A stretch of DNA of 64,000 nucleotides, from positions 124,001 through 188,000 of the forward strand of contig JAPPOV010000026.1 of assembly GCA_028873595.1 (NCBI GenBank), read 5' to 3'. How positions within the stretch are numbered: position 1 is the stretch's first letter; the number at the start of each line of letters is the position of its first letter. The position numbers and the translations under genes are program-made. Below the pieces are notes generated by a model, which made no database searches, was not told the origin of the DNA, and worked only from the letters and a program-made list of their open reading frames with translations. Shown here in pieces: positions 47,937 through 62,850 of the stretch. The stretch comes from Gemmatimonadota bacterium. GTDB taxonomy: Bacteria; Gemmatimonadota; Gemmatimonadetes; Longimicrobiales; Gaopeijiaceae.

Positions 47937-48671
47937 TCAGCTTGTCCGGGGCCGGAGGAGCCACACCGTGTCGATCCCGAACGACCAGGTCAACATCGCA
48001 AGAGCCAGGGCCGCGACTGCAACGGCGACCGGGCCGGGTATGATCGGTCCCAGGGCGACCAGAAGCGCGATCCCTTGGATCACACAGACCAGCTTTCGAC
48101 GGAAGCTCGGAAAGAGCTCCTCACGTAGCGCCGGCAGAACGAAACTTGCAGCGACGAAGAGGTATCGCATGGCCCCGATCAGAAGGACCCATGCGCCGGC
48201 TCGCGCTTCCGTCCATACGAGGCAGGAGAGCACCAGCATCAGAAACGCATCCGTCTCCATGTCGAAGAGTGCCCCGAAGCCTGTGGTGGTGCGGGTCCGG
48301 CGGGCGACCCAACCGTCCACGCCATCCAGCAGCATGATCACGGTGCCCAACCCGACGATCCACCAGCGTCCGGTCGTTCCCAGGGTGTCCGCGTGCATGA
48401 CGAGTCCCGCCAGGGAGAGCGTCCCGATTGTGCGCAGAAGGGTGACGCGATTCGCAGGGCCGAGCCCACGGTGGGGTAAAGGGTCCGGCAGGGTCGCGAG
48501 GATCAGCGCCCCGGTTGCGGCGTACAGTGCGCCCACGGCTACCAGATAGGTAGCCGGGAGGTCGAGGACGCTCCACGTTGCAGCGGCGACGAGGAGCGTT
48601 ACCGCGAGGCCGACGAGCAATTCCGGAATGGCCTGCGCACGAACTCCCCTCAAGAAAGGGGCTGTGGACAT
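47937..48671 (-). CDS. CDP-alcohol phosphatidyltransferase
   Basis: The 244-residue membrane protein carries the complete family motif: D116, D119-G120, A123-R124, G133, D137 and D141, exactly spaced. It would join a CDP-activated lipid to an alcohol (or the reverse polarity, as in inositol or archaetidyl transferases). Six or so hydrophobic segments are present. The ATG at 48671 overlaps the ATG of the opposite-strand dehydrogenase within one CATG. No ribosome site is obvious. Its position beside sugar- and lipid-type genes suggests a specialised lipid. Confidence 0.85.
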   Translation of the reverse strand: MSTAPFLRGVRAQAIPELLVGLAVTLLVAAATWSVLDLPATYLVAVGALYAATGALILATLPDPLPHRGLGPANRVTLLRTIGTLSLAGLVMHADTLGTTGRWWIVGLGTVIMLLDGVDGWVARRTRTTTGFGALFDMETDAFLMLVLSCLVWTEARAGAWVLLIGAMRYLFVAASFVLPALREELFPSFRRKLVCVIQGIALLVALGPIIPGPVAVAVAALALAMLTWSFGIDTVWLLRPRTS

Positions 48672-49659
48672 GTCGGAAGAGAACACTACACGCGAATTCT
48701 GGGTCCAGGAGCCCGGTCGCGGAGAGATCCGTACCGGTCGGCTGGGTGCGGTCGGCGCCGATGAGGTCGTGGTGCGCACCATCTACTCCGGGATCAGCCG
48801 TGGGACGGAGGCCCTCGTATTTCGAGGTGAGGTGCCAGCCTCGCGGTTCGAGTCGATGAGGGCCCCGTTCCAGAGCGGCGACTTTCCTGCACCGGTGAAG
48901 TACGGGTACATCAGCGTAGGTGTCGTCGAGTCCGCCGGTGACGACGTCGTCGACTTTGTGGGCCAGATGGTCTTCTGCCTTTATCCTCATCAGGATCGTT
49001 ATGTAGTACCGGCTTCCGCCGTGACCGCTCTTCCGGAGGGAGTGCCGCCGGGGCGAGCGGTGCTCGCGGCCAACATGGAGACGGCGGTCAATGCGGTGTG
49101 GGACGCACAGGTCTCGGTCGGAGACCGTGTGCTGGTCATCGGTGCAGGTGTGGTCGGGCTCCTGATCGCATGGCTGATCTCCCGGATCCCGTCGACCGAT
49201 GTCATCATCATCGATGTAAACGAAGCTCGCGTGGGAGTCGCGGAGAGACTCGGTCTGCACTTCGCCACTGAGCCGCCCTCGGGTATGGATGCGGATGTGG
49301 TTCTCCATGCGAGCGGAAGCCCGGACGGTCTGAGCACCGCGTTGTCGGCAGCCGGTCCAGAGGGGCGGATCGTCGAGGTCAGCTGGTTCGGCGACCGGCC
49401 GGTGACGTTGCCGCTCGGGGAGAGTTTCCATGACCGGCGGCTCACAATTCGAAGCAGTCAGGTGGGCCGGATTCCACCAGAGCGAGCGCCGCGCTGGGAC
49501 TACGCCCGAAGAATGGTTGTCGCGCTGGAGTTGCTCGAGTCCGCTGCGGTGGATGCACTCATTTCGGACGAGAGCGCATTCGACGACCTCCCCGACGTGA
49601 TGGAACGCCTCGCGCGCTCCGGGGGAGACACGCTCTGCCACCGCATCCGTTACGACTGA
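48670..49659 (+). CDS. MDR-superfamily dehydrogenase lacking the usual zinc cysteine
   Basis: The 329-residue protein has the medium-chain dehydrogenase fold: an N-terminal GroES-like part ([22 protein letters not shown]) and a nucleotide-binding fold ([17 protein letters not shown]). At the position of the catalytic zinc cysteine it has serine (YSGISRGTE), and the structural-zinc cysteines are absent, so it is probably zinc-free. AAAGGGG lies 8 bases before the ATG at 48670. The PTPS-like gene follows after 16 bases, so it likely oxidises or reduces an intermediate of that pathway. Confidence 0.8.
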
Positions 49660-49675: not shown

Positions 49676-50074
49676 ATGTACAAGCTCAACGTTCGTGACC
49701 ACTTCATGATCGCCCACAGCTTCCGGGGTGAAGCCTTCGGGCCGGCTCAGCGTCTTCACGGTGCGACGTACGTCGTCGATGCGACGTTCAAGCGCGCGGA
49801 ACTCGACGAGGATGGTCTGGTCGTCGACATCGCCCTTGCGGGAGAGCAACTGAAGGCGGTCCTCGATGACCTGAACTATCGGAATCTGGACGAGGTAGCG
49901 GCGTTCGAGGGGAAGAACACGACGACCGAATTCCTGGCCCGTGAGATCCAGGAGCGCCTCGTGCGTGCGGTCCACGATGGCAAGCTGGGCCCGAACGCAT
50001 CGGGCTGCAGCGCCATCGAAGTGACCCTGAACGAGTCGCACGTCGCGTGGGCGAGCTACGAAGCGAGCGTGTGA
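49676..50074 (+). CDS. 6-pyruvoyltetrahydropterin synthase/QueD homologue with altered active site
   Basis: The 132-residue protein has the PTPS fold pattern: DHFMIAHSF (His14), RLHGATY (His28), [13 protein letters not shown] and VTLNES. Compared with QueD and PTPS, the second histidine of LHGH is Ala30, the catalytic cysteine before it is replaced (GPAQRLHG), and the LDHHxLN catalytic histidine segment reads LNYRNLDE. Two zinc ligands and the pterin-anchoring glutamate region remain. It is therefore unlikely to do the standard reaction and probably belongs to a distinct subfamily acting on a related substrate. Its stop overlaps the GT4 start. Confidence 0.82.
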
Positions 50075-51150
50075 CCGCCGCGCCGCCGGCATTCCACCTG
50101 ATCGTTCCGGGGCCGCTCGATCAGCGGACCGGGGGCTACCTCTACGACGCACGCATCGTCTCGGAGTTGGCGGCTCTCGACACGTTGGTGCAGGTGCACT
50201 CGATCCCGGGGCGTTTTCCGGACGCAGACGACCTCGCGCGTTCCGGGCTCGATCGGGCACTCGCCGCGATCGCCGACGGTAGCTCCGTCGTCATCGACGG
50301 CCTGGCATCCGGTGGGCTTCCCGATGTGGTTGCTTCGCACGCAGACCGGCTGGCAATCGTAGCGCTCGTACACCATCCACTTGCCGACGAGACGGGCCAG
50401 ACCTCGGCACAGACCGAGTATTTCTTCGCTTCGGAGCGTGACGCGCTGCGACACGTGCGGGGCGCCATCGTGACCAGTCCATTCACGGCTCGCCGTCTAG
50501 CGGACTTTGACGTACCGGAGGGTCGGATCCACGTGGTCGAGCCCGGAACGGATCCCACCAGCGTCGCCGTGGGTCCACCTGATGGAGACGCGCCTCGCCT
50601 TGTCTGCGTGGCATCCCTCAGTCCGCGAAAAGGTCACGATCTGCTCGTCGAGGCGCTGGCTCGCCTCCGGGCCCTGGAGTGGAGTTGTGTGTGCGCTGGA
50701 AGCACGACGCGGGACGAGGACTTCGCCGGCGAAGTTCTGGCTGAGGTCGAGAGGCTGGGGTTGCGTGACCGGATCCACTTCCCCGGCGAACTCGAGACGG
50801 ACGACATCGAAGAGGTATACCGGACGGCCTCACTGTTCGTGCTCCCCTCTCACTACGAGGGATACGGCATGGCATACGCAGAGGCTCTGGCGCGTGGCAT
50901 TCCTGTCGTCGGGACGACGGGCGGAGCGATCCCCGATACGGTGCCGAGCTATGCCGCGATTCTCATCCCACCCGGGGATGTCGATGCACTGACCGAAGCT
51001 CTCGAGAGCTTGCTCGTGGCCCCCGATCGATGCGAGACGCTCGCCGAGGGGGCGCGCATGCACGCCGAGTCGCTGCCCGGATGGGCGACTCAGGCGGAGC
51101 GGTTCCGGGTGGCAGTCGATGTGCTCACGGCTCGGGGTCCTCGTGTCTGA
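50071..51150 (+). CDS. Family 4 (GT-B) glycosyltransferase
   Basis: The 359-residue GT-B enzyme has an N-terminal acceptor domain ([20 protein letters not shown]) and a C-terminal donor domain with [35 protein letters not shown] (the EX7E motif) and [10 protein letters not shown]. It transfers a nucleotide sugar with retention. GTG at 50071 overlaps the PTPS-like stop as GTGA and its own end overlaps the methyltransferase start, so these genes are translated as a chain. Glycosylation of the pathway product or of a lipid carrier is the likely role. Confidence 0.88.
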
Positions 51151-51946
51151 CGAGGTCTTCAGCGCGGACTGGCTGGCGCTCCGGGAAGCAGCGGACCATC
51201 GCTCCCGGGCGCACGAGCTTGCGGACCGACTTGGGCGGACGGGTCAGGCGGCGGGGTGGACGCACGTGCTCGATCTGGGTTCCGGCACGGGGTCCAACCT
51301 GCGTTACCTGGCGCCACGGTGGCCGTGGGTTCGGTCGTGGACGCTTCTCGACCACGACGCGCGGCTCTTGGGCGCGGCCTCAGCGCCCGGCATCGCTGAT
51401 CCGATCCGACTCGTCGGTGACCTGGCTGCCGAAGGGGTCGACGCGATCTCCTCGGCGGATGTCGTTACCGCGTCCGCCCTGCTCGATCTCGTGTCGGAGG
51501 AGTGGATGACCCGGGTGGTTGATGCGTGCGCCGCCCGTGGAGCTGCCGCGCTCTTCACCCTCAGCTACGACGGATCGATCGACTGGCGTGACGAGGATCC
51601 GGACGATGGACTCGTTCGCGAGGCGATGAACGCTCATCAACGCCGGGAGAAAGGGATCGGTCGTGCACTTGGGCCCGATGCGACGGTCGTCGCAGATCGA
51701 CTCTTTCGGGAGGCAGGCTACAAGACGTGTCTCCGGCCGAGTCCGTGGATTCTCAACGGGCTGAAGGATCGTGAACTGACCCTCGCGCTGATGCAGGGCT
51801 GGATCGAGGCGTCGATCGAGTTGCGTCCGACCGATGCCGACCGGCTGCGCGCGTGGCAGTCGCGCCGAGCCGCGACCGTACAGGCCGGAGCCTACGAGGT
51901 GATGGTCGGGCATTGCGACGTGCTCGCCGTGCCGTCAGATCCGTGA
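51143..51946 (+). CDS. Class I SAM-dependent methyltransferase
   Basis: The 267-residue protein has the SAM-binding motif HVLDLGSGTGSNLRYL (about residue 42) followed by an acidic loop, SADVVTASALLDLVSEEW and LFTLSYDG. It lacks membrane segments. The acceptor is unknown. GTG at 51143 lies eight bases inside the GT4 gene and its stop overlaps the flippase start, which points to an enzyme of the same pathway. Confidence 0.82.
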   Translation: MSDEVFSADWLALREAADHRSRAHELADRLGRTGQAAGWTHVLDLGSGTGSNLRYLAPRWPWVRSWTLLDHDARLLGAASAPGIADPIRLVGDLAAEGVDAISSADVVTASALLDLVSEEWMTRVVDACAARGAAALFTLSYDGSIDWRDEDPDDGLVREAMNAHQRREKGIGRALGPDATVVADRLFREAGYKTCLRPSPWILNGLKDRELTLALMQGWIEASIELRPTDADRLRAWQSRRAATVQAGAYEVMVGHCDVLAVPSDP

Positions 51947-52929
51947 CGCGCCGAACCCTCCTGCTGGTCGCACGGGGCGTGACGAGCGTGGCACTGTTCG
52001 GCGCGCTTGGATTCTTCCTTGAGCCTCGAGACGTGATGGCGCGGCTGGTGGAGATGGATCCAGCCTGGGTCTCCATTGCGCTGCTACTCTCGATTGCTCA
52101 GGTCGTCGGCTCTGCCTGGCGATGGCGCTTCACCGCCGGGCGCCTCGGCCTCGAGTTGCCCATGCCTCGAGCCGTCTCGGAGTACTACCTGGCGACCTTC
52201 CTCAATCAGGTGCTTCCCGGCGGAGTCGTGGGTGACGTCTCGCGAGCGTGGCGTCATGCCCGTGAGGCTGACACGCGGGCATCCGTGCAGTCGGTCGCGT
52301 TCGAGCGACTCTCCGGTCTCATTGTGATGAGCGTGGTCGCGGCCGTCTCCGCCTTGCTGCTTCTGGGCGACGTCTCTGCCGGTGCTCGCATGGGGCTCGG
52401 GCTCCTCATTGTGAGTGGCCTCGGGTGGGCCCTTTGGACCGCAGGCCGAGCCCGTGCTCGCCCGGGATCGACTCAGCTCATGCATGACCTGAGGCGTGCG
52501 CTCCTGGACGGCTTGGCGTTTCCCGTACAGCTCTCGAGCTCGGCCGCGGTTGTGGCGAGCTATATCGCGATCTTCGTCATGGCCGGCCGTGCCGTTCAGG
52601 TCGATATGTCCGGATTGATGCTCGCGATGCTCGCCGGACCTGTGCTCATGTCGATGCTCGTGCCGATGACGATCGCGGGGTGGGGCCTGCGCGAGGTCGC
52701 TGCCGCAGCGCTCTGGAGTGCCGCGGGCCTCACGGCCTCCGACGGAGTAGCGGTTTCCGTGTCCTACGGCCTGCTCGTGCTCGTTTCGAGCTTGCCCGGT
52801 GCCGCGATCCTCGGGCTCACGCTCCTTCGGAGCGGAGATCCAGGTCGAAGAGGAGATCCGAACCGAGGAGAACGTGCCGAATCGCAGGCCGACGCGCCTG
52901 CTCCAGACTCTCGATCTGGGGCAGGGTGA
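51943..52929 (+). CDS. UPF0104/lysylphosphatidylglycerol-synthase-type flippase-like membrane protein
   Basis: The 328-residue protein has seven or eight membrane segments and the family motifs YYLATFLNQVLPGGVVGDVSRAWR and FERLSGLIVMSV. This domain is the flippase half of MprF and, alone, is suspected to move lipid-linked molecules. The last 30 residues are a charged, proline-rich tail. GTG at 51943 overlaps the methyltransferase stop. The final 113 bases overlap the RibD-type gene on the opposite strand. Confidence 0.83.
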   Translation: MTRRTLLLVARGVTSVALFGALGFFLEPRDVMARLVEMDPAWVSIALLLSIAQVVGSAWRWRFTAGRLGLELPMPRAVSEYYLATFLNQVLPGGVVGDVSRAWRHAREADTRASVQSVAFERLSGLIVMSVVAAVSALLLLGDVSAGARMGLGLLIVSGLGWALWTAGRARARPGSTQLMHDLRRALLDGLAFPVQLSSSAAVVASYIAIFVMAGRAVQVDMSGLMLAMLAGPVLMSMLVPMTIAGWGLREVAAAALWSAAGLTASDGVAVSVSYGLLVLVSSLPGAAILGLTLLRSGDPGRRGDPNRGERAESQADAPAPDSRSGAG

Positions 52930-53533
52930 TCCCCGGTCGTCCCGACCCGATGAGGAGCGAGGCGACAGAGACGTGCAGTCGATCCAGAAGATCCGCTTCC
53001 AGGAAGCTGGAGACCGTTCGACCTCCGCCCTCGATCAGCACGCGACGGAGCCCGCGAGCGTCGAGTTCCGCGAGCACGTCAGCCGGATCGAACGTGTTCG
53101 CCGGTGCAGGCAGAACGACGATCTGGACATGTTCAGCGGCGTGCGGGTCTCTGGCTTTACCTTCGGAATCCAGACGATTCGCTGCCTCGCTCTGTATCCA
53201 GAGGGTCGATGCGGCACCGTCCGTGAAAATCGCGCGAGCAGGATCGAGCCGTCCGCGGGGATCCAAGGCGACTCGGACCGGGTTTGGTCCTTCGACGTGG
53301 CGCACGGTCAAGCGCGGGTCGTCGGCTTCGACGGTGCCCGCACCGACGACGACCGCGTCTACTAGTGCACGGAGTCGATGCAGGCGCTCGATGTCTTCAG
53401 GGCCGTTGATGTAGTGCGAATGGCCCGACACCGTCGCGATTCGGCCGTCGAGGCTCTGACCGAGTTGGCCGATGACGAATCGATCGAGTCGTTCGAGCGG
53501 GGCGAAGAGGTCGTCCAGATCGGTCAGGATCAC
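52817..53533 (-). CDS. RibD-type reductase (dihydrofolate-reductase fold)
   Basis: The 238-residue protein matches the reductase domain of RibD/ArfC: FVIGQLGQSLDGRIATVSGHSHYINGPED, LRALVDAVVVGAGTVEADDPRLTVR and VLIEGGGRTVSSFLEADLLDRL. It lacks the zinc deaminase domain of full RibD. Such enzymes reduce the ribosyl side chain of the GTP-derived pyrimidine with NADPH. GTG at 53533 follows the creatininase stop by one base. No other riboflavin gene is near, so a dedicated pathway is likelier than housekeeping riboflavin synthesis. Confidence 0.85.
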   Translation of the reverse strand: MILTDLDDLFAPLERLDRFVIGQLGQSLDGRIATVSGHSHYINGPEDIERLHRLRALVDAVVVGAGTVEADDPRLTVRHVEGPNPVRVALDPRGRLDPARAIFTDGAASTLWIQSEAANRLDSEGKARDPHAAEHVQIVVLPAPANTFDPADVLAELDARGLRRVLIEGGGRTVSSFLEADLLDRLHVSVASLLIGSGRPGITLPQIESLEQARRPAIRHVLLGSDLLFDLDLRSEGA

Positions 53534-53534
53534 G

Positions 53535-54326
53535 TTACGACTCCGGTCCCTCGAAGCGTTCGACCGGAAATACCGATGCATCGCGCACGATGTCCGCCAG
53601 GATCGCACCGTAATGCTCGATGAGCCGGTGTCCGAGCTCCGCAGTGGCGAGGGTCGCGTCCCCGGTTACCCCGTCCGGATTCAGGTCCTGAGCGAGCCAG
53701 GCGAAGGGTGCGACACCCTCGGGCCGGATCCATGCCATCTCGTGCTCGAGCTCTTCACCGAATGATTCGAATCGACGGATCTCTTTTCGACGGACGAGGT
53801 CCGGTCGCAGGTGCAGCATCATCGCCGTTTCAAGCGCCCCGCCGTGCAACCCATGAGTCCACTCGGCATCAGGCAGCGACACATTGCCCGGTCCTGGGAA
53901 GCGGAAGTAATTCGCCTTTACGACGAGCATGTCGTATTCGAGCCGAATGCGAATCGCGGCGGAATCGAGAACCGCCTTGTTGCCCCCATGGCTGTTCATG
54001 AGAACGAGACGACGGATGTCGGCGGTGTACAGACTGCCGGCGATCTCGCTCAGGGTCTCCTCCAGTGACTTCGGCGTAAGTGTCAGCGTGCCGGGGAAGG
54101 CGAGGTGTTCCGGACTGGCTCCGACCACCTGGGCGGGGAGCACGACGTGGGGCACGTCCTCGAGCCGACCCACCGCGTTTGCGATGAGTCCGGCCCCGAT
54201 CTCTACGTCCGTGGAGAGCGGAAGGTGTGGTCCGTGCTGCTCGATGGCCGCGACCGGGAGGATCACGACGGGGTCACGCTCGGCGAGGTTCGCCACCTCG
54301 GGGCTGGTCATCTCGTGCCACTTCAT
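53535..54326 (-). CDS. Creatininase-family amidohydrolase
   Basis: The 263-residue protein has the metal ligands of the family: E29 and H31 in AAIEQHGPHLPLSTD, D40, H113 in MNSHGGN, and E166 in HGGALETAMM. The family includes creatininase, the mycofactocin peptidase MftE, and the archaeal deformylase ArfB, which acts on a GTP-derived formamidopyrimidine. Encoded directly before a RibD-type reductase and in the same block as a GTP cyclohydrolase II, an ArfB-like or related pyrimidine hydrolase is an attractive guess. ATG at 54326 matches the family start. Confidence 0.85.
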   Translation of the reverse strand: MKWHEMTSPEVANLAERDPVVILPVAAIEQHGPHLPLSTDVEIGAGLIANAVGRLEDVPHVVLPAQVVGASPEHLAFPGTLTLTPKSLEETLSEIAGSLYTADIRRLVLMNSHGGNKAVLDSAAIRIRLEYDMLVVKANYFRFPGPGNVSLPDAEWTHGLHGGALETAMMLHLRPDLVRRKEIRRFESFGEELEHEMAWIRPEGVAPFAWLAQDLNPDGVTGDATLATAELGHRLIEHYGAILADIVRDASVFPVERFEGPES

Positions 54327-54337
54327 TCGTTGGCCCC

Positions 54338-55081
54338 TTAGTCGGTAGGCATGTGACGGGCATAAAGATCTCCGGATGAGATCCCGCTCGCTTCGCCGGC
54401 GAGCCACGCACGGACATCGGTTGCCGAACGCCACGTCGACCACAGAAAGTCTCGCCCCTCGCCACGGATCGCATTGTACTCGTACTGAGCCAGCGATTCG
54501 AGCCGGTCGACGCATTCCGTGGTGACCTGGAGTGTGCCCGCGACGAACTCGATTGAGAGCGCCTCGATGGGTCGGGACAGGCCAGCGAGGACATCGGCCT
54601 CGAAGCCCTCGACGTCGATCTTGCAGAAACGTGGTGCGCCGAACTGGTCGATGAGGTCGTCCATCGTCGTGACCTCAACCTCCGTGGAACGGTTCCAGCG
54701 GACGCCCCGGAACGTCGGGTTCTCGTGCACGACGGCATCGCGCCAACCGTCGGCGAGTGTCGATAGCGTCGGGTTGGCGTCGCTGACGGCGAGACGTGCC
54801 GTGCCGGCCCTCCGGCCCACGGCGGCCGGAACCACGGTCACACCCGGTCGCCGACCGACCAGGCGTCGCAACCAGGGGAGAAGGTGCGGCTGAGGCTCGA
54901 GGGCGATTACGCGAGCACCGAGCCTGGAAAAGGCGGCCGTTCGGTCCCCGAGGTGTGCCCCGACGTCGAAGACGAGATCACCGCGACCGACGAACGGAGC
55001 GTACAGGGCCCGAAGGCCTGCCTGTCGACCGGGGCGCCAGTACACCACCACTGAACGGAGCAGGCCCAGCCAGCGTCGCAC
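54338..55081 (-). CDS. FkbM-family SAM-dependent methyltransferase
   Basis: The 247-residue protein has the FkbM pattern: LVFDVGAHLGDRTAAFSRLGARVIALEPQP as motif I and FCKIDVEGFEADVLAGL as the conserved core. FkbM enzymes usually O-methylate sugars or polyketides. GTG at 55081 overlaps the upstream stop by one base, and the creatininase gene starts 11 bases after its end. This makes a second methyltransferase in the 46-63 kb block. Confidence 0.83.
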   Translation of the reverse strand: MRRWLGLLRSVVVYWRPGRQAGLRALYAPFVGRGDLVFDVGAHLGDRTAAFSRLGARVIALEPQPHLLPWLRRLVGRRPGVTVVPAAVGRRAGTARLAVSDANPTLSTLADGWRDAVVHENPTFRGVRWNRSTEVEVTTMDDLIDQFGAPRFCKIDVEGFEADVLAGLSRPIEALSIEFVAGTLQVTTECVDRLESLAQYEYNAIRGEGRDFLWSTWRSATDVRAWLAGEASGISSGDLYARHMPTD

Positions 55082-56715
55082 TAGGGTCGGTCCTGTACGG
55101 CGGACGGCGTAAACGCATTCACGAACCAGTCGCGAAACGTGTCCATCCGTCGGACGTCATCTAGAGCCGGAGGGATGACACCGGGCGCGAAACCCCATTC
55201 CATGAACGGAGCGAGAACCTCAGGGTCGCGGCCGATGACGTGGACCGGAACCGCGCGGCTCGCATCTTCGCCCGTGATGAGTGGAGCGGGTTGATGATCA
55301 CCGAGCGCGATCAGCACCGTCGTGTCGTCGACGTATCTCACCGCGTACGAGGCCATGGCGTCGATCGCGTAGCCTACTGCGAGTGCGTAGTGCTCTCGCA
55401 CTCGATCACCGTGTCGCCAGAGCTCTTCCGGGGTCTCGCCCATGTCGGCAAAGGAGTCGAAGACTTCACCGTTGCCGATGGAATCCCAGTCGTCGAGGAC
55501 GGGCAGGACCGGCGTCCATGGTGCGTGGCTGCTGATGAGTCCGACCTCCGCGAACAGTGGTCGGTCATCGGTTCTGCGGATCGTGTTCTCGAGGTAGGAC
55601 CAGGTGAACTGATCGGGCATCGTCACCCAGTTCAGAGACGGCCCGGCGTAGTCGATGTCCTCCCACGCGTGGATTCGCTCATAGCCGAAGCGGTCACCCT
55701 CGGGCCACGCCATCGTGATCGCGGGCATCAGCGCCGCGGTCCGGTACCCTGCGGCCTCGAAGTCGTCGACGAGCGTCTGGCGGTCGCTCGCCAGCAGAAG
55801 GTCGTACCGCAGCTGATTTTCCAACCATAGCCCGCTCAGGAGCGATCCGTGTCCCAGCCACGACATACCCCCCTGACTGGGTGCGACGAGCTGGCCCGTC
55901 GCAATCAGGAGACCTGCGGAGTCGAATGCCTGGAGCATCGAGTCGAGTCGGGGACGGATGGTCGGTGCGTACCGCTCGTCGTCGATTGCAGACATGCCGT
56001 ACGACTCCACGAAGGCCAGGATCAGATCGCGTCCGTCCAGCCCCGCGAGGAGTCCCGGCATATCGGCATAGTGATCGGGCGCGACGGCCATCTCCGCACC
56101 GAATCGCTCGTTTTCCTTCATCATGCTCGCAACGTGCCGAACCTGCTCGCGCGTCAATTGAACGGCCGGAAGGGCGAGGGCCACGCCGCTCGGGTGGATC
56201 CAGCGGGCCGGTACGGCGACGAGTGCCGTCACGAGTGCTGCGACCCCGACGATCCACTGACGCCGGTTCCCGCGTTCCGGGTGAAGTGTGGAGAGCAGAT
56301 ACCCGAGCAGGATCGCTGCGGCGATGGCCGCGATTGCTGCTCCGACAAGTACGAGCGTGCCGATCACGGTTCCGAGTGTGCCGCGAAGCAGATCCGCGAC
56401 TGCGCTCACCAGCTGGACATCCAGATACAGGTTGAGTGGGCGCGCGAGGCTCATGCGGGCGGTTGTGTCGCCGAGTTGCAAGACGCCTAGGGTGATCACG
56501 AGAAGTCCACATAACCAGGCCGCAGCCTCGGTCCAGCGGGATCGCGGAAGGAGCAGGAACGCCGCGGTCAGGATCGCGGCCTCGAGGGCCAGCACGTGCG
56601 GACCAAAGTCCCGGTTCAGAATCCAGATCGGGATCAGAAGGAAAGAATTGGCCAATACGAGGGTAGCTATTGCCCTCGCACTTCTTCCCGGCCTTTTCCA
56701 GATCTTTCTCGTCAT
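55081..56715 (-). CDS. Membrane-anchored sulfatase-superfamily protein (phosphoglycerol/phosphoethanolamine transferase-like)
   Basis: The 544-residue protein has five N-terminal membrane helices (about 15-180) and a periplasmic alkaline-phosphatase-superfamily domain. LILAFVESYGMSAIDD supplies the first metal-site residues, SQGGMSWLGHGS the nucleophile region, and LIALGDHQPAPLI the second metal-binding Asp-His. It resembles LtaS/OpgB-type enzymes that move phosphoglycerol or related groups from a lipid to a glycan. Next to opgG/opgH, decoration of periplasmic glucan is likely. The predicted ATG overlaps the opgG ATG within one CATG; an ATG 36 bases upstream is an alternative. Confidence 0.8.
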   Translation of the reverse strand: MTRKIWKRPGRSARAIATLVLANSFLLIPIWILNRDFGPHVLALEAAILTAAFLLLPRSRWTEAAAWLCGLLVITLGVLQLGDTTARMSLARPLNLYLDVQLVSAVADLLRGTLGTVIGTLVLVGAAIAAIAAAILLGYLLSTLHPERGNRRQWIVGVAALVTALVAVPARWIHPSGVALALPAVQLTREQVRHVASMMKENERFGAEMAVAPDHYADMPGLLAGLDGRDLILAFVESYGMSAIDDERYAPTIRPRLDSMLQAFDSAGLLIATGQLVAPSQGGMSWLGHGSLLSGLWLENQLRYDLLLASDRQTLVDDFEAAGYRTAALMPAITMAWPEGDRFGYERIHAWEDIDYAGPSLNWVTMPDQFTWSYLENTIRRTDDRPLFAEVGLISSHAPWTPVLPVLDDWDSIGNGEVFDSFADMGETPEELWRHGDRVREHYALAVGYAIDAMASYAVRYVDDTTVLIALGDHQPAPLITGEDASRAVPVHVIGRDPEVLAPFMEWGFAPGVIPPALDDVRRMDTFRDWFVNAFTPSAVQDRP

Positions 56716-58405
56716 GACACCCGTGCTTCGTGCTCGTCTGTCTTCGACCATCCTCCTTGCGGGGATGTTCGGCGCGTGCGTCAGCGAAGACCTTCCTCGT
56801 CCGAGCAGTGATCGCGACGAGTCCGCGGCCCTCCGCACCGAAGGGGTGGAGAATGTAGCGGCTGTCGTGACCATGCCGGATTGGGTTTCCGAGTCCGGTG
56901 GGCCGACACTGTTCGAACACGTTACCGAATATGCGCGACTTCGTGCCCAGGTCGGGTATCGTGCGCCGGCGTCGACCGTGTCTCCCGTGGTGTCCGGACT
57001 GACGTACGATCAGTACCGCGGCATTTCGTTTCGGTCGGATCAGGCGGTGTGGACGGGCACGGGTCCGTTCGAAGTTCATTTCTTCCACCCGGGTGGCGGA
57101 AACGACGTGCCGGTACAGATCCATCTGGTCGAAGATGGTCGGGCGACGGGTCTAGACTTCGATTCGGGCTTTTTCTCGTACGGGGACGAAACCGAGGGCC
57201 TCGACATGAGCCTTTCGCCCAAAGCGGGCTTCGCTGGGCTGAAGGTGCTCTTTCCGCTGAACGATGAGTCCCGCATGGACGAGGTCGTTTCCTTCCTCGG
57301 GGCGTCGTACTTCCGCCTGCTCGGGCCCGGACATGTGTACGGTCTGTCGACGCGTGGCCTTGCTGTCGATGTCGCTCGACCGGAGGGTGAAGAGTTTCCC
57401 GACTTTGTCGAGTTCTGGCTGGTGCGACCGTCGCCCGAAGCCCGGACTCTGACGATCGTAGCTCTTCTCGATGGGCCTTCGGTGGCTGGTGCCTTCCACT
57501 TCGTGCTGACTCCGTCGCCCGACCGGATCGCACCCACGATCATGGACGTAGAGGCCCGGCTCTTCGCCCGCACGGATGTCGGCAAGCTCGGAGTGGCCCC
57601 GCTCACCAGCATGTACTTGCACGGCACCTTCGCACGGGGTGGGGACGATGACTTCCGACCGCGAGTGCACGACTCGGAGGGCCTTCTCATGCATACCGGT
57701 CGAGAGGAGTGGATCTGGAGACCGCTCACCAACGGGTCCGGCGTTCGACTTACCTCGTTACGCGACGTGTCGCCGTCGGGCTTCGGCCTCGTTCAGCGTG
57801 ATCGTGCGTTCGAGAACTACCTGGACCTCGAAGCCCAGTACCACCGTCGCCCCAGTGAGTGGGTTCAGGTTCAGGGAGAGTGGGGCCGTGGAGGAGTCGA
57901 GCTCCTCGAAATTCCGACGGACTCGGAGTTCAACGACAACATCGTGGCGTCGTGGGTCCCCGAAGCGCCGTTTCGGGCCGGAGAGGAACGCACGTATCGA
58001 TACCGGCTCGTGACCTTCGACCAACGCTTCGACGAGGAGGCCGAGGTCGCGTCCGGGCAGGGTCAGACGCTGGCGCAGGTGAAGCACACTCGGATCGGTT
58101 GGGATGCCCTTCCAGGTGAAGCCTCGCCGCCTCCGCGGAGCCAGCGACGAGTGGTCATCGACTTTGGAGGTGGTGTCCTGAACGACATCGCCGAGGACGC
58201 GAGTATCGTTGCCGATGCCCAGACCTCGTCTGGAGATATCTCCGATCTGCTGGTTCACGTTCTTCCCGACGGAGGCCGGCGCGCGACGTTCACGCTTGTG
58301 CCTGAGGTGGGCCGCGGAGCGGATATGCGCGTATATCTCCGGCTCGACGGTCGATCGATCAGTGAAACGTGGAGCTATCTGTGGGAGCCGCCGCGTGTCC
58401 CTTGA
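56714..58405 (+). CDS. opgG: OpgG/MdoG-type periplasmic glucan biosynthesis protein, lipid-anchored
   Basis: The 563-residue protein matches OpgG: LTYDQYRGISFRSDQAVW, FPLNDESRMDEVVSFLGASYFR, GLSTRGLAVDV, MYLHG and the C-terminal immunoglobulin-like part. OpgG shapes osmoregulated periplasmic glucans after OpgH synthesises the backbone. The N-terminus has a lipobox (LLAGMFGAC), whereas the E. coli protein is soluble in the periplasm. The residues between the anchor and the OpgG core are a low-complexity linker. The stop overlaps the next start by 11 bases. Start at 56714 has no clear ribosome site. Confidence 0.88.
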   Translation: MTPVLRARLSSTILLAGMFGACVSEDLPRPSSDRDESAALRTEGVENVAAVVTMPDWVSESGGPTLFEHVTEYARLRAQVGYRAPASTVSPVVSGLTYDQYRGISFRSDQAVWTGTGPFEVHFFHPGGGNDVPVQIHLVEDGRATGLDFDSGFFSYGDETEGLDMSLSPKAGFAGLKVLFPLNDESRMDEVVSFLGASYFRLLGPGHVYGLSTRGLAVDVARPEGEEFPDFVEFWLVRPSPEARTLTIVALLDGPSVAGAFHFVLTPSPDRIAPTIMDVEARLFARTDVGKLGVAPLTSMYLHGTFARGGDDDFRPRVHDSEGLLMHTGREEWIWRPLTNGSGVRLTSLRDVSPSGFGLVQRDRAFENYLDLEAQYHRRPSEWVQVQGEWGRGGVELLEIPTDSEFNDNIVASWVPEAPFRAGEERTYRYRLVTFDQRFDEEAEVASGQGQTLAQVKHTRIGWDALPGEASPPPRSQRRVVIDFGGGVLNDIAEDASIVADAQTSSGDISDLLVHVLPDGGRRATFTLVPEVGRGADMRVYLRLDGRSISETWSYLWEPPRVP

Positions 58406-61400
58406 GCTGAACAGCCCCTTCGTACGAACCCGTCGAACCATCTATTTCGGTCTCGTCGGTGCTACGACGCTGGCGGGCATGTTCATGATGGCCGGCATCG
58501 TGTCTGCGCAGGGATTGACGCTCCTGGAGTTCGTGATTCTCGCGCTCTTCGCTCCGACCTTCGGCTGGATCGTCATGCCGTTCTGGACGGCGGTGATCGG
58601 GTTCGTACTGTACATTACGGGCCGTGATCCCGTGACACTCTCCGCGCGCAGCCCCGTCGTGTGCTCCGTGATCGCAGATAGGCTGTCATTGCGCGGGCTG
58701 CCGCGCACTGCTGTCGTTGTTCCGGTCTTCAATGAGGATCCGGCCCTCGTCGCGGCTCGAGTCTCAGCACTCATGCAGTCTCTGAGGCGCGTGACGCTGG
58801 GAAGCGAGTCTGTACACGTCCACCTTCTCTCCGATACCCAGGACGACGGGATCGCGCAGCGTGAGCGAGTGGAATGGGTCGAGCTTCAGGCACGGCATCC
58901 CGAGATCCCGGTACACTATCGTCGGCGTACCCGAAACGAGGGGCGGAAGGCGGGGAATATCGGAGAGTTCTGTCGGCGGTGTGCGGACGACTATGACCTG
59001 ATGGTCGTCCTCGATGCCGACTCTCTCATGACCGGGGAGGCCATTGTGCATCTGATTCGACAGATGCAGGCTAACCCCGACGTCGGCCTCATTCAGACGG
59101 TTCCGATGCCGGTCCTGCAGCGTTCGCTGTTCGGACGACTGATCCAGTTTGCGGGGAGGCTCTACGGGCCTGTGCTGGCGACGGGCCAGGCATTCTGGTA
59201 CGCCGACTCGGCGAACTACTGGGGCCACAACGCAATCATGCGCCTCCGCCCATTTCTCGAGCACGCCAGGCTTCCGGTATTGAGTGGCCGCCCGCCTCTG
59301 GGGGGAGAGGTTCTAAGTCACGACTTCGTGGAGGCGGCGCTTATGAGGCGAGCTGGGTGGCGGGTCGTGCTTGCCACTGATCTGCCGGGAAGCTGGGAAG
59401 AGGTGCCGCCCAACGTTGATGACTACGCACGTCGGGATCATCGTTGGGCGCAGGGCAGCCTGCAGCATCTGCGCTTGTTCGCAGAGAGAGGTCTGCACCC
59501 GTTGAGCCGCCTGCACTTCGTGCTCGGTGCCATGGGGTATGTGTCATCTCTCCTCTGGCTGCTGATCCTCGTGGCCGGAACCGCATACGTCCTGGCTCCG
59601 TGGAGCCACGGTCCCGTTCTCATCGACCGACAGGTGGTGCCTCCGCCGATCTTCTCCCTCCTCGGACTTACCGCCGTCGTGCTCCTGGTACCGAAAGCAC
59701 TTGGTCTCATGGCTGGACTGCTTCGGGAACGAGCTGCCTTTGGAGGCGCGATGCGCATGGTGGTCAGCGCCGGCCTCGAGACCGTGTTTTCGGTGCTGCT
59801 TGCGCCGCTGATGATGCTGTGTCACGCGCGCTCTGTCGCCGAGATCGTGCTAGGGCGCAGCGTGGGCTGGGGTACGCAGAATCGTGAGCGAACGGATCTG
59901 AGCTGGGTCGATGCAGCGCGGGCCGCGGGCTGGCCGACCCTGGTCGGTCTGGTATTGGGCGGTACAACGCTCGCGCTCAGCCCGCTCTTCTTTGCATGGA
60001 TGAGTCCCATCTTCCTCGGGCTCGTTCTCAGTATCCCGCTGGTCCGGTGGACCAGTCTTCGTGGACTGGGTCAGCGCGCGTACGCTGCCGGCTTGCTGCT
60101 CGTGCCTTCCGAGGTCGATGAACCCGCTGAGGTCGCTTCGGTACGGATGGTGCAGGACACCGTCGGGCGACCGGATCCGACACGACCGTTGGGGGTTCTG
60201 ACAGCTCGCTCGGTTGCGTCTTCAAGTCCCCTCCCAGTAAGTCGCAGTATGTACAACGCAGAACGCGGACTCTTCGATCTTCGCCAAGGGCGCTCGCTCC
60301 TGATCACGGATTGTGGGGCTGTTCACCCGGGCGATGTGCCTGAGACGGGTGTCCTCGTGGCATCCGTCGAGGGACTTGATCCGGCAGCCCTCGATCGACT
60401 TCGGGATATGGGGTCTGAGCCGCTCCGGCTGGTTTTGACCGCACATCGGGTCGGAGCGATGGGCCTTTCGCCGGAGACGTCGAATGCGGTCCCCTCCAGT
60501 AGCTATTCAATAGCGCTTCGACACAACGTGGAACTTCATGAGGTGCTTGCACTGGCCTGCTCTGCAGACACCGATCACGACGCAGTGGCTTGGACGCTGT
60601 CGTCTGCTGCTCCGGCTGAGTCAGCGGGGCTTTCGCTTGTGCACCTTGCACGCTTGATACCGGCAGTGGTCGCGATCCCCATTTGGGCTCCACAGACTCT
60701 TCAGCTCCGAGAAGCGCTAGAGAGTGGTGAGATCCTCACCGTCGACCAGAACGAGGTGCACGAGTTTGTCGCCTCATCGGGGGTCGACGTCGTAGCGGTC
60801 AGCGAAGCGCCTGTGCCGCTAGAGGACGCGGTAGACTCCCGCTTTGTGCTCTTTCGCGAGTCGTACGGACTCCATGAGCACATCGCAGTCATGGTCGGCA
60901 ACCGAGATCAGTGGCCCGATCCTGTTCCGGTCCGTCTCCACTCCGCCTGTCTGACCGGTGACCTCTTTGGGAGCCTCCGTTGTGACTGTGGTGAACAGCT
61001 CCGCCGCAGCATGGAGGTCTTCAAGTCTCGGGGTGGTGGCGTACTGCTCTATCTTGCGCAGGAAGGACGAGGGATCGGACTGCACAACAAGTTCCGTGCG
61101 TACACCCTCCAGGAGGGTGGGCTCGATACCATCGATGCAGATCACACACTCGGGTTCGGGGCCGATGAGCGACGCTACGTTGCTGCCGCGCGAATGCTGC
61201 AGCACCTCGACCTTGAACGTATCGAACTGTTCACCAACAACCCCGAGAAGCTCCAGGCCATGGAAGACTCAGGGATCACGGTCGTCGGTCGGAAGGCTCT
61301 GCACGGGACGCTGAACCGCCACAACCGCCCGTACGTCGAAGCGAAAGTTCACCGGGCTGGGCACTGGCTGAAGGACATGCTAGCGCAGCCAAGGTCGGGG

Positions 61401-61406
61401 GACTGA
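58395..61406 (+). CDS. Fusion: OpgH glucan glucosyltransferase + GTP cyclohydrolase II
   Basis: This continuous 1003-residue frame joins two families. Residues 1 to about 590 are OpgH, a membrane GT2 making the beta-glucan backbone: VVPVFNEDP, VVLDADSLM, WYADSANYWGHNAIMR and RRDHRWAQGSLQHLR, with membrane helices on both sides. The FtsZ-binding N-terminal tail of E. coli OpgH is missing. From about 619 there is a degenerate DHBP-synthase-like segment and then GTP cyclohydrolase II: zinc cysteines C852, C863 and C865 in CLTGDLFGSLRCDCG, QEGRGIGLHNKFRAYTLQ, and FTNNPEKLQAM. Start is GTG at 58395. An internal ATG at 60249 could allow separate cyclohydrolase synthesis, though no good ribosome site precedes it. 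Confidence 0.88.
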   Translation: MSLELNSPFVRTRRTIYFGLVGATTLAGMFMMAGIVSAQGLTLLEFVILALFAPTFGWIVMPFWTAVIGFVLYITGRDPVTLSARSPVVCSVIADRLSLRGLPRTAVVVPVFNEDPALVAARVSALMQSLRRVTLGSESVHVHLLSDTQDDGIAQRERVEWVELQARHPEIPVHYRRRTRNEGRKAGNIGEFCRRCADDYDLMVVLDADSLMTGEAIVHLIRQMQANPDVGLIQTVPMPVLQRSLFGRLIQFAGRLYGPVLATGQAFWYADSANYWGHNAIMRLRPFLEHARLPVLSGRPPLGGEVLSHDFVEAALMRRAGWRVVLATDLPGSWEEVPPNVDDYARRDHRWAQGSLQHLRLFAERGLHPLSRLHFVLGAMGYVSSLLWLLILVAGTAYVLAPWSHGPVLIDRQVVPPPIFSLLGLTAVVLLVPKALGLMAGLLRERAAFGGAMRMVVSAGLETVFSVLLAPLMMLCHARSVAEIVLGRSVGWGTQNRERTDLSWVDAARAAGWPTLVGLVLGGTTLALSPLFFAWMSPIFLGLVLSIPLVRWTSLRGLGQRAYAAGLLLVPSEVDEPAEVASVRMVQDTVGRPDPTRPLGVLTARSVASSSPLPVSRSMYNAERGLFDLRQGRSLLITDCGAVHPGDVPETGVLVASVEGLDPAALDRLRDMGSEPLRLVLTAHRVGAMGLSPETSNAVPSSSYSIALRHNVELHEVLALACSADTDHDAVAWTLSSAAPAESAGLSLVHLARLIPAVVAIPIWAPQTLQLREALESGEILTVDQNEVHEFVASSGVDVVAVSEAPVPLEDAVDSRFVLFRESYGLHEHIAVMVGNRDQWPDPVPVRLHSACLTGDLFGSLRCDCGEQLRRSMEVFKSRGGGVLLYLAQEGRGIGLHNKFRAYTLQEGGLDTIDADHTLGFGADERRYVAAARMLQHLDLERIELFTNNPEKLQAMEDSGITVVGRKALHGTLNRHNRPYVEAKVHRAGHWLKDMLAQPRSGD

Positions 61407-61413
61407 CAAGCCG

Positions 61414-61764
61414 ATGGCTGCGTCTGACGAGTTCACCCTGTATGACCTCCGCGTGGAGGTAGTCGCCGGCGACGGGCCCATGGTGTGCAATCATGTCGTC
61501 GGTGATTACTTCGAGCTCTCCGGCGAGAATCTGAGCCTGCCACCAGGTCAGACGTTTCCGCTGTACCCACTGGCTGCGCTCCTGCCCCTCCTGCCGGCGA
61601 AGCAGCGCGAGACGCACCCCCACGACTGGATGACCACGGACATGGAGATCGCGTGCCCAGACCCGCTCTGTGGCGCTCGATTCCGGATCACGCGAACCGG
61701 ACGGTCCACGTTCCGTCACTCCGAAGTGACGCGCGTGCCCCTCGGAGACGATGAGCGTTTGTAA
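61414..61764 (+). CDS. TIGR04076-like small protein
   Basis: The 116-residue protein resembles TIGR04076 proteins: LYDLRVEVVAGDGPMVCNHVVGDYFELSGENLSLP, then LAALLPLLPAKQRETHPHDWM and a cysteine pair in IACPDPLCGARFRI. The cysteine spacing could bind metal. No function is established for the family. It starts 7 bases after the OpgH-cyclohydrolase fusion, so it is cotranscribed. Confidence 0.75.
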   Translation: MAASDEFTLYDLRVEVVAGDGPMVCNHVVGDYFELSGENLSLPPGQTFPLYPLAALLPLLPAKQRETHPHDWMTTDMEIACPDPLCGARFRITRTGRSTFRHSEVTRVPLGDDERL

Positions 61765-61806
61765 TCTCGGGACCGTCTGGCTGATCAGTGACGGGTCACG
61801 ACTGAG

Positions 61807-62850
61807 GTGACGGTCGACCGCTACGAGCTGAGTCCCGGGTACTCGATCAGTCGACTGATCCACGGTGGATGGCAGTTCTCCTCCGGCCATCGCCTCACAC
61901 AATCGGGTCTCAACGACGCCGTGGATGTCCTCGAGGCGTCGGCGGAGCTTGGGGTCACGACCTTCGACTGCGCGGACATCTACACCGGGGTCGAGGAACT
62001 GTACGGGCGTTTTCTGCGGCGCTGGGCATCGAGCTCGAACGACGCTCCGATCCAGATTCACACGAAGTTCGTGCCGGACTGGTCGGATTTGCCGAAGGTC
62101 GATCGGGCTTACGTGACTCGGATTATCGATCGCTCCTTGGCGCGACTCGGCGTAGAGCGACTGGACCTCGTCCAGTATTACTGGTGGAGGGACGAAGTCC
62201 CGGGCTTCGAAGAAGCCGCTGTGTGGCTCGATGACCTCCGAAAACAGGGGAAAATCCGGCACGTTGCTGTCACGAACCTCGATGTACCACGGCTACGTCG
62301 ACTCGATCAGGCTGGTGTGTCTCCGCTCACCAACCAGGTGCAGTACTCGCTCCTGGATCGTCGTCCAGCGGGTGCACTCACAACGCGCTGTTCGGAGTCG
62401 GTGATGCGGATCCTCGGGTTCGGAGCCTTGGCTGGTGGATTTCTGACCGACCGGTGGCTGCGCCAGCCCGAGCCTGAGGGGTACGCGAATCGGTCACTCG
62501 TGAAGTACCGCCTCATCATCGATGAATTCGGCGGGTGGCAGGCCTTTCAGAACCTTCTCGAGACGATGCGGGACATCGCATCGCGCCGCGGAGTGGAGAC
62601 GTCAGCTGTCGCGATTCGCTGGGTGCTCGATCAGCCAGGTGTCGCGGCCGTGATTTCGGGTGGAACGCGACTGGGTCAGATGGCTCGAAACGCCGCAGCG
62701 TTCGACTTCGAGTTCAGCGACGAAGACCGTGAGGCTCTACGAACACATGTCGATCGTGCGCCCGGGCCTTCGGGCGACGTCTTCGAGCTGGAGCGTGATC
62801 GAGACGGGCCTCACGGTCGGATCATGAAGTACGATCTCAATCGGGACTGA
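61807..62850 (+). CDS. Aldo/keto reductase family protein
   Basis: The 347-residue protein has the AKR barrel pattern: LIHGGWQFSS at strand 1, TTFDCADIYTGVEELYGRFL (catalytic Asp and Tyr), IHTKFVPDW (Lys), and the C-terminal GTRLGQMARNAAAFDF. The position of the catalytic histidine appears changed (LDLVQYYWWRDE). It would reduce a carbonyl with NADPH. Start is GTG at 61807, 42 bases after the TIGR04076-like gene. It closes the operon that starts with opgG. Confidence 0.85.
   Translation: MTVDRYELSPGYSISRLIHGGWQFSSGHRLTQSGLNDAVDVLEASAELGVTTFDCADIYTGVEELYGRFLRRWASSSNDAPIQIHTKFVPDWSDLPKVDRAYVTRIIDRSLARLGVERLDLVQYYWWRDEVPGFEEAAVWLDDLRKQGKIRHVAVTNLDVPRLRRLDQAGVSPLTNQVQYSLLDRRPAGALTTRCSESVMRILGFGALAGGFLTDRWLRQPEPEGYANRSLVKYRLIIDEFGGWQAFQNLLETMRDIASRRGVETSAVAIRWVLDQPGVAAVISGGTRLGQMARNAAAFDFEFSDEDREALRTHVDRAPGPSGDVFELERDRDGPHGRIMKYDLNRD

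Follow-up and report, generated by a model that had tools for sequence, protein, structure and literature searches.

A single uninterrupted gene in a member of the Gemmatimonadota joins the membrane glucan synthase OpgH to a complete RibA-type GTP cyclohydrolase II (GCHII), here designated RibA', and we found this fusion intact in ten species of one genus and two of another. The window in which it lies is a 64,000-nucleotide stretch of contig JAPPOV010000026.1 (assembly GCA_028873595.1, positions 124,001 to 188,000), and all coordinates below refer to it unless otherwise indicated. The fusion was confirmed as a genuine single open reading frame. On balance we consider it probable that it has been kept as part of a conserved gene cluster, in which RibA' starts a GTP-derived pathway alongside glucan synthesis by OpgG and OpgH.

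Structure of the fused gene

The frame is open throughout, from a GTG codon preceded by GGAG to a TGA stop, and is composed as follows:

58395-61406, forward strand: OpgH::RibA' fused ORF, 1003 amino acids, about 109 kDa
58395-60167, forward strand: OpgH (MdoH) membrane glucosyltransferase part, residues 1-591 (NF003958; AlphaFold2 model with Foldseek match to cellulose synthase BcsA)
60168-60248, forward strand: linker, residues about 592-619, disordered, its sequence and length varying between species (alignment A1)
60249-60812, forward strand: degenerate RibB (DHBP synthase)-like domain (profile, Foldseek, alignment A2), its first residue being the ancestral RibA' start methionine
60813-61403, forward strand: GCHII domain (PF00925), catalytic residues as in E. 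coli GCHII

The OpgH part passed the MdoH equivalog model NF003958 of NCBIfam (718 bits against a cut-off of 419), carries the GT2 catalytic motifs DADS, SHDF and RRDHRW (residues 207, 308 and 346), is predicted to adopt the membrane glucan-synthase fold and adjoins opgG. All of these are common to OpgH/MdoH of E. coli, the GT2 enzyme of osmoregulated periplasmic glucans (OPGs), from which the fusion differs in lacking the long N-terminal domain and in bearing an entire RibA-type enzyme at its C-terminus. It is most likely that this part, as predicted from its motifs and family, makes the periplasmic beta-glucan backbone from UDP-glucose together with OpgG.

The C-terminal part passed PF00925 (176 bits, cut-off 23.3) and the general RibA model NF001591 (220 bits, cut-off 148), and scored below the cut-off of TIGR00505 (183 against 205.85). 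The top NCBIfam model across the whole RibA' half was NF006456 (PRK08815, GTP cyclohydrolase II RibA with an N-terminal domain), at about 320 bits and thus below its cut-off of 464. Alignment with E. coli GCHII (2bz0) showed that the zinc cysteines C54, C65 and C67, along with Y105, D126, R128, T149 and K154, are all conserved in the fusion, and the zinc-cysteine and catalytic positions did not vary across 21 aligned relatives. The RibA' half is hence most likely, by homology, to open GTP with release of formate and pyrophosphate. The initial annotation, which had described a complete OpgH and a GCHII with its three zinc cysteines in one polypeptide, was borne out on both counts.

That annotation had left unnamed the domain at 60249-60812. 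As this RibB-like domain separates OpgH from GCHII, the C-terminal half of the fusion amounts to a complete RibA-type protein of two domains. The profile of this domain matched DHBP synthase structures (E 2e-5), and Foldseek searches with the predicted model of the C-terminal half retrieved RibBA (4i14), RibBX (6mnz), GCHII and RibB. The RENEGD acidic motif of functional DHBP synthase was absent from both the profile alignment and alignment A2, which sets the protein apart from a bifunctional RibBA; most likely, the RibB domain has been inactivated and the GCHII domain is intact. The AlphaFold2 model of the whole protein (mean pLDDT 83) comprises OpgH, a disordered linker (pLDDT below 50 at residues 592-619) and the RibA' half.

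RibA' thus has in common with E. coli RibA and the RibBA of Mycobacterium tuberculosis (4i14) a full GCHII active site, and with the latter a two-domain fold, whilst differing in the missing RENEGD motif, in not being the riboflavin copy and in its attachment to a membrane enzyme. RibBX of Acinetobacter baumannii (6mnz) is likewise a two-domain RibBA fold with one altered domain. It presents the mirror case, being named as a DHBP synthase with a second domain that we take to be degenerate, whereas RibA' has retained GCHII and lost RibB.

Distribution of the fusion

Searches for the same domain order were conducted in 59 relatives and then in 394 genomes of the class. Amongst the 59 relatives, eight other species of the same genus encode the fusion unbroken from end to end, and a ninth (G008) is fused across the junction, its contig starting inside OpgH. 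The class search added G106 and G335, both of genus g5, in which the fusion is therefore present in at least two species; that of G106 lies on a single-contig chromosome of 4.1 Mb. The carriers besides the window genome are G001, G002, G003, G005, G006, G008, G010, G011, G012, G106 and G335, and across the two genera the fused proteins are down to about 54% identical. Relatives named in GTDB are MAGs of Gemmatimonadota, among them UBA4456, UBA2975 and CP070829.

As 11 other species carry the fusion unbroken, chance is excluded. Close relatives are fused rather than carrying two separate genes, and there was no sign in this genome of a frameshift near 60200, the two findings that the initial annotation had named as fatal to its claim. 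One candidate was rejected: a long frame suggested by the search in genus g14 (G026) proved on translation to contain two in-frame stops between opgH and ribA'.

The gene cluster around the fusion

When genes of unfused relatives were used as queries, the window was found to hold a 15-kb cluster of which the fused genes are two members. The genes surrounding the fusion are:

47937-48668, reverse strand: CDP-alcohol phosphatidyltransferase (PF01066)
48628-49659, forward strand: zinc-binding dehydrogenase, BchC/TDH-like (PF00107)
49676-50074, forward strand: PTPS/QueD-like protein of the SCO6650 type (PF01242; E 1e-50 to SCO6650, PDB 3d7j)
50071-51150, forward strand: GT4 glycosyltransferase (PF00534)
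51143-51946, forward strand: class I SAM methyltransferase (weak PF13649)
51943-52929, forward strand: LPG_synthase_TM/UPF0104 flippase-like membrane protein (PF03706)
52817-53533, reverse strand: RibD C-terminal reductase domain alone, without the deaminase domain (PF01872)
53535-54326, reverse strand: creatininase-family protein, relative of MftE/ArfB (PF02633)
54338-55081, reverse strand: FkbM-family methyltransferase (PF05050, TIGR01444)
55081-56712, reverse strand: sulfatase/alkaline-phosphatase-superfamily-like membrane enzyme (weak PF00884), divergent from opgG
56714-58405, forward strand: OpgG, lipobox-bearing (PF04349, 543 bits), overlapping the 5' end of the fusion by 11 bp
61414-61764, forward strand: TIGR04076 protein (61.5 bits)
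61807-62850, forward strand: aldo/keto reductase (PF00248)

The last two genes (61414-62850) occur 3' of the fusion only in the subclade of the window genome. A cytochrome b561-like gene, present in the cluster of many relatives (for instance L037 8058-8633 and L179 9606-10130), was not found in the window.

The PTPS-like protein failed the QueD model TIGR03367 (45 bits against 89) and, since it lacks the QueD catalytic cysteine and reads HGA in place of the HGH zinc site, probably does not perform QueD chemistry; as judged from these residues, such proteins, usually annotated as 6-carboxytetrahydropterin synthase, are probably misannotated in many genomes. Its close homologue SCO6650 of Streptomyces coelicolor is encoded near SCO6655, which we take to be a GCHII paralogue, and we know of no OPG genes in that neighbourhood. 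The RibD reductase scored 122 bits with TIGR01508, below the cut-off of 186, and its top models include the archaeal-order reductase. In the sulfatase-like enzyme the motifs FxESYG, GDH and VPVHV are conserved (alignment A5); a profile search returned no PDB match for it, so a phosphotransfer role for this enzyme is guesswork.

Occurrence of the cluster and its association with OPG genes

Unfused versions of the cluster were identified in Gemmatimonadota, Acidobacteriota and Pseudomonadota, several of them also with opgG or opgGH, so the fusion unites genes that were neighbours already, as seen across other genera and to some extent across other phyla. The initial annotation had treated the pairing of OpgH with GCHII as unexplained; the single polypeptide stands, yet both genes belong to one conserved cluster.

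Within the 394-genome sample of the class, RibA' was encoded by 40 genomes and OpgH by 29, with both in 28, a co-occurrence with a Fisher p of 3e-32 in a test that ignores common descent. The two lay on one contig, within about 8 kb of each other, in 25 of the 28 shared genomes, the other three being contig breaks. At least nine class members (G007, G070, G123, G147, G161, G233, G266, G293 and G322) had the cluster, or its part comprising ribA' and the sulfatase-like gene, but lacked opgGH; in their genomes these two genes are divergent or close together. Amongst the loci of this kind (L042, L181, L187, L188, L190, L192, L195, L197, L198 and L201), they are directly divergent in most.

Beyond the class, this gene set recurs in Acidobacteriota, where ribA' lies between ribD and the creatininase gene and opgGH is absent. 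It was also found at six loci of Pseudomonadota (the contig of G490 starts inside ribA'), with opgG and opgH inside the set in G800 and G490, and opgG in G718 and G454; at several of these loci opgG or opgGH is within about 5 kb of the cluster. Aquisalimonas lutea has the set, the 19 kb examined there containing no OPG gene, and plasmids of Rhizobium sp. SL42 and Agrobacterium carry the cluster with OPG genes absent. No cluster surrounded the plasmid-borne RibA homologues of Microvirga and Methylosinus, nor the PTPS homologue on a Streptomyces plasmid. The core on a Palleronia plasmid (L208 7113-14887) adds genes for an inositol monophosphatase and a PfkB kinase, hinting at a phosphorylated intermediate.

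Because the cluster exists without opgGH in class genomes, Acidobacteriota and rhizobial plasmids, the cluster's product is not dependent on these glucans. The association of OpgH with RibA' at class level favours a shared role, whilst the clusters without opgGH argue for a function of the compound's own.

Literature searches returned no paper combining OpgH with a GTP cyclohydrolase and none on the cluster; most subscription papers were outside their reach, and a prior description is possible. Each half of the fusion belongs to a known family, and it is the domain combination and the OPG-linked cluster that were not found in the literature searched, the cluster being apparently undescribed.

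Origin and fission of the fusion

In genus g14, opgG, opgH and ribA' are neighbours yet unfused, being interrupted by two in-frame stops in G026 and in separate frames in G150 and G310; the same adjacent, unfused order is present in G320 (L079). This arrangement is the intermediate stage. In other genera ribA' is a few kb off, beyond the sulfatase-like gene. In the trees, the fused genes fall into two adjacent groups, compatible with one or two origins.

The reverse has also occurred. G013 and G004, nested among fused species, share, when compared with G002, a deletion of 2 bp from the linker, which splits the gene into two overlapping frames (L034 7423-7509 and L035 7581-7667). DNA alignment showed this to be the sole indel in 3 kb at 94-95% identity, and it is a natural fission of the fused gene. 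Both genes are intact after the split, with dN/dS of 0.17-0.18 for both halves and 0.08 for the GCHII domain. As this deletion leaves both genes intact and under purifying selection, the physical joint is dispensable.

The ancestral start methionine of RibA' (ATG 60249 in the window) has been kept in every fused species examined, whilst the residues around it vary and some unfused relatives start elsewhere. Internal initiation at 60249 is possible on this pattern, although no strong ribosome-binding site was seen for this ATG.

These observations give weight to the main alternative, that the joining of two neighbours was nearly neutral, that OpgH and RibA' act independently, and that cluster and OPG genes are co-located for shared regulation rather than a shared product. 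Fission with both halves intact under purifying selection, a disordered and drifting linker, the clusters without opgGH and a retained methionine that could yield free RibA' would all be expected of it. Nevertheless, the fusion has lasted across one genus and into another, to about 54% identity, hardly any genome of the class has OpgH in the absence of RibA', and opgG or opgGH adjoins the same cluster in Pseudomonadota, such that we consider this alternative unlikely, if a serious contender.

Function of the fused protein

Both termini of E. coli OpgH are cytoplasmic (PMC3723540), so RibA' would be placed where GTP is available. The initial annotation's proposal of a GTP-consuming enzyme at the inner membrane is to that extent reasonable, with RibA' on the cytoplasmic face.

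The same position, with GTP binding expected by homology, would suit a regulatory domain that senses GTP and adjusts glucan synthesis or cell size, analogous to the UDP-glucose-dependent inhibition of FtsZ by E. coli OpgH (PMC3723540). However, all catalytic residues are retained under strong constraint, RibA' is free in most relatives and accompanied by RibD and other metabolic genes, and the inhibition of FtsZ in E. coli maps to an N-terminal region, all of which make a sensor very improbable. Still less credible is a housekeeping riboflavin enzyme, the match to NF001591 notwithstanding, since nearly all of these genomes have a separate RibBA-type GCHII and RibA' travels with a non-riboflavin cluster. 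The canonical copy of the window genome (G000) is itself cut by two contig ends (C9:2-316 and C12:111983-112276; L002 and L003). Although the window genome is a 52-contig assembly, an assembly or sequencing artefact has next to no likelihood because nine further species of the genus and at least two of g5 carry the fusion uninterrupted, which with the window genome makes 12 species from separate projects, a single-contig chromosome among them, and because it is under purifying selection.

Most likely, then, RibA' catalyses the first reaction of a separate pathway, dedicated to a product other than riboflavin and operating together with the synthesis of periplasmic glucans; the fusion would join two adjacent steps. 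We infer the following order of steps from the families encoded. OpgH and OpgG would make the periplasmic glucan backbone, whilst RibA', at the cytoplasmic face of the membrane, would convert GTP to 2,5-diamino-6-ribosylamino-4(3H)-pyrimidinone 5'-phosphate, which the deaminase-less RibD reductase would reduce to the ribityl form (ribityl-diaminopyrimidine). The PTPS-like protein, dehydrogenase, creatininase-like hydrolase, methyltransferases and glycosyltransferase could convert this to a modified pyrimidine or pterin, and the CDP-alcohol transferase, flippase-like protein and sulfatase-like enzyme might render the product lipid-linked and exported, possibly onto the glucan. The fusion would contribute fixed stoichiometry and membrane tethering rather than new chemistry.

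To our knowledge, the OPG decorations described to date derive from the head groups of phospholipids or from small acids. A more speculative extension, which we hold to be doubtful, is a new class of envelope molecule in which a ribityl-pyrimidine or pterin-like unit, made from GTP, would be placed on a lipid carrier by the CDP-alcohol transferase and flipped; in the OPG-associated versions the sulfatase-like enzyme would then transfer the unit onto periplasmic glucans, and the fusion would couple the first step to backbone synthesis.

The findings suggest that in these uncultured Gemmatimonadota the synthesis of envelope glucans is coupled to that of a pyrimidine or pterin-like compound derived from GTP. 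From the siting of a GTP cyclohydrolase II pathway next to a glucan synthase, and within it in one lineage, an undescribed envelope compound is predicted. The cluster would also provide a function for orphan proteins of the PTPS-like and RibD-like kinds, whose annotation in many bacteria is as enzymes of queuosine or riboflavin synthesis.
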